The notes under the pieces: generated by a model
Database searches by the model: none
Told to the model about the DNA's origin: nothing
Seen by the model: only the letters and a program-made list of their open reading frames with translations
In this document: positions 5,989 to 33,968 of the stretch, in pieces
How the letters are laid out: every line of letters starts with the position of its first letter
Numbering within the stretch: position 1 is the first letter of the stretch
Program-made: the position numbers and the translations under genes
Assembly: GCF_037996765.1 (NCBI RefSeq)
Contig: NZ_JBBNAD010000005.1
Coordinates: 342,001 to 406,000 of the forward strand
Source: Bdellovibrio sp. GT3
GTDB lineage: Bacteria; Bdellovibrionota; Bdellovibrionia; Bdellovibrionales; Bdellovibrionaceae
Reading direction: 5' to 3'
Length of the DNA stretch: 64,000 nt

Positions 5989-7044
5989 CTAGCGTGGACG
6001 CGGTGGTTCTGGTGGAGGAACCGGGCGATCGTTATGACATTTTTCAAGAATCAATGTGACGTTATGAATGTCCATGCTGCCATATGTGTAGATCACCATA
6101 TTTTGCGTATTTGGTCCGATCACCACATTTTGTGGATTCCATAGATATGTTTGAGTCCATGGCCCAATTTGCAAACGAGGGTAGACGAACACTCCATTAA
6201 TAGATAGATCCGCAAACGAAGAGTTCACCAACGACATTGCTTCGAAACGCACAGATGCCAAACGGTACCCACGGTACTGACGGGAATTAAAGTATCTGCC
6301 AATATCCAGGACATCATTGCCCATCATACGACGGCTGATACCAAGACTTACTTGCTCACAACGGCATGGGTTTTCAACTCCCCCACCACCGCCGCCGCCA
6401 CCTTGGCAACGAAGATTCAAAGCAATTGTGGAGATATCAGACATGCCACGCACTTCGATCTCCATCATGCGCACGCCTTGGCCGATCACAGCGCGGAAGC
6501 GCGGCACAAAGTGCACGTAGCCTTGTGGAGAGTTCGCCCACTGATCAACTTGACCGTTAATCAGGAAACCCATTTGTGTGCGGATGTCAGAACCAAGCAC
6601 TTGCACACCTACAGATTCAACCACGCAACCTTGATAGCGATGGTCAATTCCCGCAAGCGCAAACAAATTCAAACGTTGATTGATCACGCGACGTTGAACG
6701 TAAATAACTTTTTGATCTGAACCATAACCGCCGTTACCCGGTTGACCTGGATTTGGACTGTGCGGCGGCGGAGGTGGAGGAATCGGAGTCGTCGCCGGTG
6801 GCTTGCCCGGATTTGGTCTCGGGTTAGGTTTTGGATTCGGTTTTGGCTGAGGGCGCGGTTGCGGCTCTGGCTGCGGATATTCTGGCTCACCTGGAACCGG
6901 AAGATCGTCATCTGGTAATGGAAGTGGATTGTTATACCCACCGCTTTGCGGTCCTTGGTTTTGTCTTGTTTGCGCTTCACTGACTTGCGGTCCAAAAACC
7001 ATCGCCATGGAAATCGCCAAGATAAAAATCTGATTCAGAGCCAT
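5989..7044 (-). CDS. Exported proline-rich protein of unknown function
   Basis: 351 residues from ATG 7044, supported by AGGGGGA just upstream and by a signal peptide (MALNQIFILAISMAMVFG...VSEA). A Pro/Asn/Lys-rich spacer follows (about residues 30-110: PEPQPRPQPKPNPKPNPRPN, then a run of Pro in PIPPPPPPHS), likely extended and able to cross peptidoglycan. The C-terminal 240 residues form a beta-rich region with two similar halves, each with a Cys (RYQGCVVESVGVQVLGSDIRTQ and YRGYRLASVRFEAMSLVN), split by a Gly run (GGGGGGGG) and CRCEQ. I do not recognise the family. A cell-wall-spanning or surface role is inference. Confidence 0.75.
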   Translation of the reverse strand: MALNQIFILAISMAMVFGPQVSEAQTRQNQGPQSGGYNNPLPLPDDDLPVPGEPEYPQPEPQPRPQPKPNPKPNPRPNPGKPPATTPIPPPPPPHSPNPGQPGNGGYGSDQKVIYVQRRVINQRLNLFALAGIDHRYQGCVVESVGVQVLGSDIRTQMGFLINGQVDQWANSPQGYVHFVPRFRAVIGQGVRMMEIEVRGMSDISTIALNLRCQGGGGGGGGVENPCRCEQVSLGISRRMMGNDVLDIGRYFNSRQYRGYRLASVRFEAMSLVNSSFADLSINGVFVYPRLQIGPWTQTYLWNPQNVVIGPNTQNMVIYTYGSMDIHNVTLILEKCHNDRPVPPPEPPRPR

Positions 7045-33507: not shown

Positions 33508-33664
33508 AAGAAAACCTCCAATTCAAAAATCCTACCCACTCCCCCAAAAACAAAAAAGCCATAACACCCCCGCTCCCCAACACAACCGTTCACCCAACGC
33601 ACAAAGTCATCCCCCAAACTCTCCATGGAGCAGCTCTTCCGACTGGTTTTTACAAAGAACTCAC

Positions 33665-33810
33665 TTCCACAGAGGAAATTTAGGATGGAGAGCAGGTTCG
33701 TGCAGACCTCCGCGGGGCCAGGAAGGCCCCCCGCCAAAGGCGGGAGCGGCAAGGGCAGGATGCCCGGGTCGAAACGAGCCTGCTCTCCATCCTAAATTTC
33801 CTCTGTGGGA
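33665..33810 (+). ncRNA. Putative structured RNA or repeat element: 37-bp helix closing a multibranched core
   Basis: Arms 33665-33701 and 33774-33810 pair as 37 bp with only two non-Watson-Crick pairs (33666/33809 and 33697/33778). Both are T-G on the plus strand and A-C on the minus strand, so the plus-strand RNA folds better. Inside are GACC/GGTC (33705-33708 with 33767-33770), CCGC/GCGG (33710-33713 with 33746-33749), GGGGCC/GGCCCC (33714-33719 with 33725-33730), CCGCC/GGCGG (33731-33735 with 33739-33743) and GGGCA/TGCCC (33753-33757 with 33761-33765). It ends 50 bases before the SRP RNA. No family recognised; a mobile palindromic repeat is the alternative. Confidence 0.6.
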
Positions 33811-33860
33811 CGACGAGTTATCGAATGTAACCCAACCCCCAGTAGGATAGACCAATCCAT

Positions 33861-33956
33861 GGCCGGGTCCCATGCAATGGCTCCCTTGACGAACTCCGCT
33901 AGGTCCGGAAGGAAGCAACGGCACTCGAGGGTCCATGTGATATGGGGTGCTCGGCC
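33861..33956 (+). ncRNA. ffs: Signal recognition particle RNA (4.5S type)
   Basis: The universal SRP core GGTCCGGAAGGAAGCA stands at 33902-33917, with the GGAA tetraloop and asymmetric loop that bind Ffh. Outer ends GGCCGGGTCCCAT (from 33861) and ATGGGGTGCTCGGCC (to 33956) pair to close a single hairpin of about 96 nt, the small bacterial form without Alu domain. A T run follows at once as terminator. A TAGGAT box lies 12 bases before the start. It targets inner-membrane proteins with Ffh and FtsY. Confidence 0.95.
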
Positions 33957-33968
33957 ACTTTTTTGTTT
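33957..33968 (+). terminator. T-run terminator of ffs
   Basis: After the closing GC-rich stem of the SRP RNA, the sequence ACTTTTTTGTTTT gives a U tract. The RNA's own outer helix serves as the terminator stem. Confidence 0.7.

Follow-up and report, generated by a model that had tools for sequence, protein, structure and literature searches.

Results

Position and fold of the element

The window, by which we mean the whole stretch of 64,000 nucleotides of Bdellovibrio sp. GT3 that was analysed, contains the gene for the small SRP RNA (ffs), and a large structured element ends 50 bases upstream of it. The gene on the 5' side of the element is divergent and no gene end is found upstream, and on the strand that carries the core there is no T run 3' of the element. 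From 5' to 3' the parts are:

33665-33701, plus strand: 5' arm of the rod helix P1, hypervariable, 37 bp with 33774-33810
33702-33704, plus strand: GCA, 5' side of the 3x3 internal loop (often GNA/GNA) at the boundary of rod and head
33705-33707, plus strand: 5' side of stem S1 (GAC), followed by the unpaired junction CU at 33708-33709
33710-33713, plus strand: 5' side of stem S2 (CCGC), pairs with 33746-33749
33714-33730, plus strand: hairpin A, loop AGGAA at 33720-33724, of GGA type (CGA in a minority of copies)
33731-33743, plus strand: hairpin B, triloop AAA at 33736-33738, absent from some copies (L046, L047, L049, L068)
33746-33749, plus strand: 3' side of stem S2 (GCGG), followed by the junction CAA at 33750-33752, consensus NGA
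33753-33765, plus strand: hairpin C, loop AGGAU at 33757-33761
33768-33770, plus strand: 3' side of stem S1 (GUC), preceded by the junction GG at 33766-33767
33771-33773, plus strand: GAA, 3' side of the 3x3 internal loop
33774-33810, plus strand: 3' arm of the rod helix P1
33815-33823, plus strand: box GAGTTATCG between element and ffs, probably part of the ffs upstream region and not of the element
33861-33959, plus strand: small SRP RNA (ffs), a neighbour outside the element, Rfam match

The two arms form a rod of 37 consecutive base pairs, including two G-U pairs that are A-C on the minus strand, and the internal loop separates it from a head in the form of a three-way junction, where stem S1, hairpin C, and stem S2 with hairpins A and B on top of it meet. 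The minimum free energy of positions 33655-33820 folded as RNA is -116.2 kcal/mol, to be compared with a mean of -58.8 (sd 4.6) for dinucleotide shuffles of the same segment, which gives z = -12.45, and none of the 200 shuffles was as low. The original prediction had described the helix with its two wobbles, a core of at least three hairpins and two short closing stems, the missing T run and the end 50 bases before ffs, and all of this is borne out, down to the exact positions of the arms. It had also stated that no known RNA family explains the element, and in a search of Rfam 15 (gathering thresholds and E ≤ 10) no family was indeed above threshold at the element; the SRP RNA was the sole match in its surroundings, and other matches were weak and below threshold, to microRNA hairpins at L008 and to PrrB_RsmZ at L025, the latter with 21.7 bits against a threshold of 44.

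The ffs locus in related species

The region before ffs was compared by folding in 23 of the 24 Bdellovibrio genomes. The element can be read in 13 of the 23 species, and 11 of these copies are also called by the covariance model (E ≤ 0.01). It is masked in two more (G006 and G003), where the arms are seen beside the masked sequence, G010 has a degenerate remnant, and the element is absent from seven species (G002, G005, G013, G015, G020, G022 and G023). The copy upstream of ffs is vertically inherited. Most species have kept the box GAGTTAYYG before ffs whether or not they carry the element, so it probably belongs to the ffs region.

The covariation alignment was made from the seven species with ffs elements that have no gaps in the arms. 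Here 98.5% of the pair cells are paired, and 33 of the 47 pairs have changed on both sides, while none of 500 shuffles was as high by any measure. In the rod, compensatory changes are found in 25 of the 27 aligned inner pairs, and the covariation score of 0.763 should be seen against 0.195 for shuffled alignments and at most 0.238 when the partners were slid. Covariation at this locus had been named in the original prediction as a check on a structured RNA, and the compensatory changes do exceed the controls. They are in fact overwhelming at this orthologous locus, and of the three explanations that it had offered, a new structured RNA fares best.

Other copies persist for a long time at orthologous sites as well. 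The genomes G014 and G016 are about 90% identical where they were compared, and most of the tested copies are common to both. In one group of orthologous copies from close relatives (examples are the pairs L093/L117, L073/L008 and L002/L007) there is little or no change in the arms while the 5' flanks differ by 17-25% or more; in others the changes are numerous, and most are double changes by which a Watson-Crick pair is restored.

Copies in the genome and in the phylum

A DNA search of the genome of the window found two further loci with the same core and a different stem, and no match elsewhere to the arms of the window copy; when folded, both loci have the same head on top of other long helices. 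The genome-wide search suggested in the original prediction therefore did find copies, although what they have in common is the core only. A first covariance model, built from 19 Bdellovibrio copies, matched 23 of 24 Bdellovibrio genomes with 1-34 copies each. There are nine copies in the genome of the window, so that the suggestion of a palindromic mobile repeat present in one copy is wrong as regards the number, whereas mobility is possible, and the maximum of 34 is reached in G014 and G016. Applied to a sample of 291 genomes from across the phylum, the same model was positive in 38. A second model, built from 100 copies and used with a cut-off of E ≤ 1e-4, found the element in 59 of 369 genomes of the phylum with a patchy spread that extends to other families within the order and to one from outside it, with unmatched genomes of the same phylum serving as a weak substitute for a negative control.

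All copy counts are lower bounds, as only a few candidates per genome are scored in the large scans and the model gives low scores to some copies of the HD100 type. In two of the assemblies (L185 in G006 and L188 in G003, both 5' of ffs) runs of N lie exactly within the inner hairpin, which indicates that some assemblies break at the element, or are masked there, and that the counts are underestimates also for this reason. The element is thereby a warning that genome assemblies can break at such hairpins. A strict DNA pattern run over genome contigs, too strict for measuring breadth, gave a single match, in Nocardioides and probably by chance, and no match to the element was found in the phage and plasmid collections.

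A conserved head on a free rod

Each copy consists of a conserved three-way-junction head on a rod in which only the pairing is preserved. The common head reads GRCCUCC, two hairpins with GGA or CGA loops, and GUGUC, and the rod is a helix that is close to perfect, 20-60 bp long in most copies and with a median arm length of 34 nt in 47 copies, and its sequence is unrelated among copies. Among the copies of G016 the median identity of the cores is 74%, and arms aligned from the core are on average 33% identical, compared with 28% for shuffled arms. Many near-identical copies, which the original prediction had regarded as the mark of a repeat element, are thus not what the genomes contain. Many copies in G286, a genome from another family, have nearly identical heads on stems of 30-40 bp that are perfect or nearly so and unrelated to each other.

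In 100 aligned copies the U of the junction CU (33708-33709) and the first G of the junction GG (33766-33767) are invariant, several junction bases are conserved to 97-100%, and several head positions to more than 95%. Hairpins A and C both end in loops of the type NGGAN, with CGA in place of GGA in a minority: automatic loop assignment gave GGA in 87 and CGA in 13 of 100 copies for hairpin C, and a rough regular expression gave 64 GGA and 28 CGA for hairpin A. Hairpin B is exchanged for a short linker in some copies. Beyond the rod, an outer helix P0 is found in about 40% of 47 copies, which exceeds mismatched controls.

One element of G014 (L117, about 6171-6331) has a second dispersed hairpin sequence inserted in the loop of hairpin A, an insertion that its ortholog in G016 does not have. 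The inserted sequence consists of two AGGA-loop hairpins around GCGCGTYAGCCCG and occurs also at L017 (G001, about 747050).

The preserved strand

The two wobbles had been taken in the original prediction as a sign that the plus strand is the favoured one, an argument that holds over the Bdellovibrio copies examined. Mismatches in 47 copies from the genus were scored in a strand-symmetric way, with the pairs used by the model left out. On the core strand there are 38 G-U against 8 A-C, and 117 G-A against 3 C-T, where a part of the G-A excess stems from an arm module (5' CUGCCUUGGGCACAGCGG, 3' GACCGAUGGGACCAAGGCAG) that related copies have in common. Counted per element the asymmetry is 20:3 for G-U against A-C and 35:1 for G-A against T-C. 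In 30 copies from other genera the trend is the same, 18:11 and 7:3, and not significant. The asymmetry means that selection in Bdellovibrio acts on a folded single core strand, and the fold that is preserved is that of the core (plus) strand. G-T and G-A mismatches are favoured in single-stranded DNA too, so the numbers fit either nucleic acid; most likely the preserved strand acts as RNA.

Genomic context

The copies are largely intergenic, and simple ORF calling around 47 of them gave 17 convergent (+-), 12 ++, 10 -- and 8 divergent (-+) pairs of neighbours. At 15 of the 17 convergent sites the element lies closer to the stop of the opposing gene than to its own 5' neighbour, and it is hence oriented. 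Between co-directional neighbours the orientation is neutral (12 and 10), so that no read-through from the 5' gene has to be assumed. The neighbouring genes are varied, among them PrpD/PrpB-like genes, citrate synthase, CysS, Hsp33, MgsA, histidine kinase, trigger factor and subtilases; no common function or partner gene was found among those scanned, and with such diversity no regulon or partner gene is evident. We saw no enrichment of sigma-70-like promoters upstream of the copies. The genome G001 matches the laboratory strain B. bacteriovorus HD100 in size, and its copies include those at about 976187, 1033009, 1191852, 1192176, 2138258, 2406468 and 3086143, besides the one at ffs. For HD100, eight sRNAs of the attack phase have been published (PMC3627812), and none of the eight overlaps in coordinates with the copies listed for G001.

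A deeply conserved copy (L072, about 2690-2781; L002, about 1488-1579; and orthologs) lies between the prpD-like and prpB-like genes and is antisense to both. Divergent pairs of elements about 300-450 bp apart recur (L104, L077, L091, L179, L044 and L172), and in several of them each element points to the 3' end of a neighbouring gene. The pair at L077 adjoins a citrate synthase gene, and a portion of the region that holds the pair (L077/L113) does not have the same orientation in G014 as in G016.

A Bdellovibrio genome has up to 12 RAYT-like genes for a Y1 transposase, and short inverted repeats flank these genes on both sides (L157-L178). These are of several types, e.g. GGGTATCGGTCA/TGACCGATACCC and AAAGGTACCTGC-like, and the Y1 elements appear to be diverse. 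At L178 a tandem array of TCATCAC/TCACTCA heptamers adjoins a RAYT-like gene on its 3' side.

Discussion

The explanation that we prefer, to which we would give a probability of roughly one half, is that the copies are structured RNA elements of one family, dispersed and persistent over long times, with a docking head on a sequence-free rod. Past mobility or duplication must explain how the copies were dispersed, and it is possible, albeit unlikely, that the element is in itself a non-autonomous mobile element, a hairpin of single-stranded DNA that is recognised by a trans-acting HUH (Y1/RAYT-type) transposase, with the head as the recognition fold. The 1-34 copies per genome and their patchy distribution would fit, as would the very similar heads on unrelated stems in G286 and the tolerance of single-stranded DNA for the same mismatches, and the genomes richest in copies also have the most RAYT-like Y1 genes (10 in G014 and 12 in G016). 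On the other hand, the model found the element at only two of about 20 RAYT loci searched, roughly 1.5 kb away, and the RAYT genes have their own, different inverted repeats; 13 copies occur in G002, which lacks a Y1 gene, and none in G022, which possesses one. The comparisons revealed no clean empty site, the two resolved differences between G014 and G016 being core deletions that left remnants of the arms, and most of the stem sequence is free, which is unlike the target of a transposase.

A bidirectional transcription terminator, or a protector of the 3' ends of the flanking mRNAs with an effect like that of REP/BIME hairpins, seems to us a doubtful alternative. Convergent neighbours are the commonest context and the distance to the convergent gene's stop codon is often just a few tens of bases, but the T run is missing, the head is strongly conserved although a plain hairpin would suffice, in Bdellovibrio it is the strand antisense to the abutting gene that is preserved, the other three contexts are common too, and the window copy is downstream of no gene end. 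It is improbable that the element is a DNA palindrome that is kept perfect purely by mutational correction through template switching, with a stem that is not under selection. The arms are unconstrained in sequence and do change in paired blocks among close relatives, as correction would have it; still, correction cannot yield a conserved head with compensated inner stems, and being strand-neutral it cannot produce 38 G-U against 8 A-C, or 117 G-A against 3 T-C, a part of which is due to the shared arm module. The suggestion in the original prediction of a processing unit for 4.5S RNA, or of a regulatory unit specific to this SRP RNA, has the 13 readable copies 5' of ffs in its favour, together with the arms beside gaps in two species and the remnant in one. 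Nearly all copies are however found far from ffs, seven of the 23 species lack the element there, and the box GAGTTAYYG persists in most species without it, and we regard this suggestion as very improbable indeed.

Returning to a family of structured RNAs, our best guess is that the function is that of a protein-docking head on a sequence-free duplex rod. The core strand would be transcribed and used as RNA, and a protein, possibly a dimer, would dock on the head's two GA-loop hairpins, which are equivalent and mostly have NGGAN loops. The rod would isolate, stabilise and space the head, and may also give the RNA a nuclease-resistant base, as in processing stalks. Known sites of CsrA are GGA in hairpin loops, and a CsrA gene was found in 24 of 24 and 38 of 38 genomes tested, with or without the element. 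The GGA loops and the presence of CsrA in all genomes tested make it the only candidate partner that we can name, a weak one and rather unlikely, since a universal protein makes co-occurrence uninformative and the CGA in 13% of the hairpin C loops is not expected to bind CsrA, which speaks against it. Tentatively, the family could be regarded as a multi-copy RNA (or single-strand) element of predatory bacteria in which the same docking head is carried by a unique and almost fully self-complementary rod at each locus. If that is true, every locus makes a different long duplex bearing one common protein-docking head, up to dozens of times per genome.

The family spans the phylum of Bdellovibrio and includes a genome of HD100 size, and transcription, the partner protein and any effect on predation are thus directly testable. 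A fixed head together with a rod in which only pairing counts is also an unusually clean natural record of compensatory evolution.

As far as the searched libraries go, the structured family is undescribed, and no description of it was found in the literature searched. It resembles REP, BIME and REPIN sequences, which are likewise short dispersed intergenic palindromes in tens of copies and often at the 3' ends of genes, and RAYT-like genes are present in most genomes that bear the element, as in REP/RAYT systems. The stems of REP sequences are conserved and linked to a RAYT gene, whereas our element has a hypervariable stem, is conserved at its apex, and showed no linkage to RAYT genes. From intrinsic terminators it differs in the 3' flank, where T makes up just 6-26% at positions +1 to +7 of the core strand. 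Retron msr/msd RNAs also have long complementary ends and hairpins with conserved loops, but the element has no msd-like second stem, and there is no reverse transcriptase among the neighbouring genes scanned. By automatic loop assignment it appears to have GGA in hairpin loops, two per head, as do the CsrA-binding RNAs of the CsrB/RsmZ class, and it departs from them in its three-way junction, its long rod and the CGA of some loops. The stalks of pre-rRNA that are cut by RNase III are similar in being a long duplex of which only the pairing matters around a conserved body, although the body is here a head of 65 nt in many dispersed copies. The strong covariation and the fixed nucleotides in junction and loops are as in the structured RNAs of Rfam, and there is a fair chance that the design, with a fixed head on a free rod, is new in kind.
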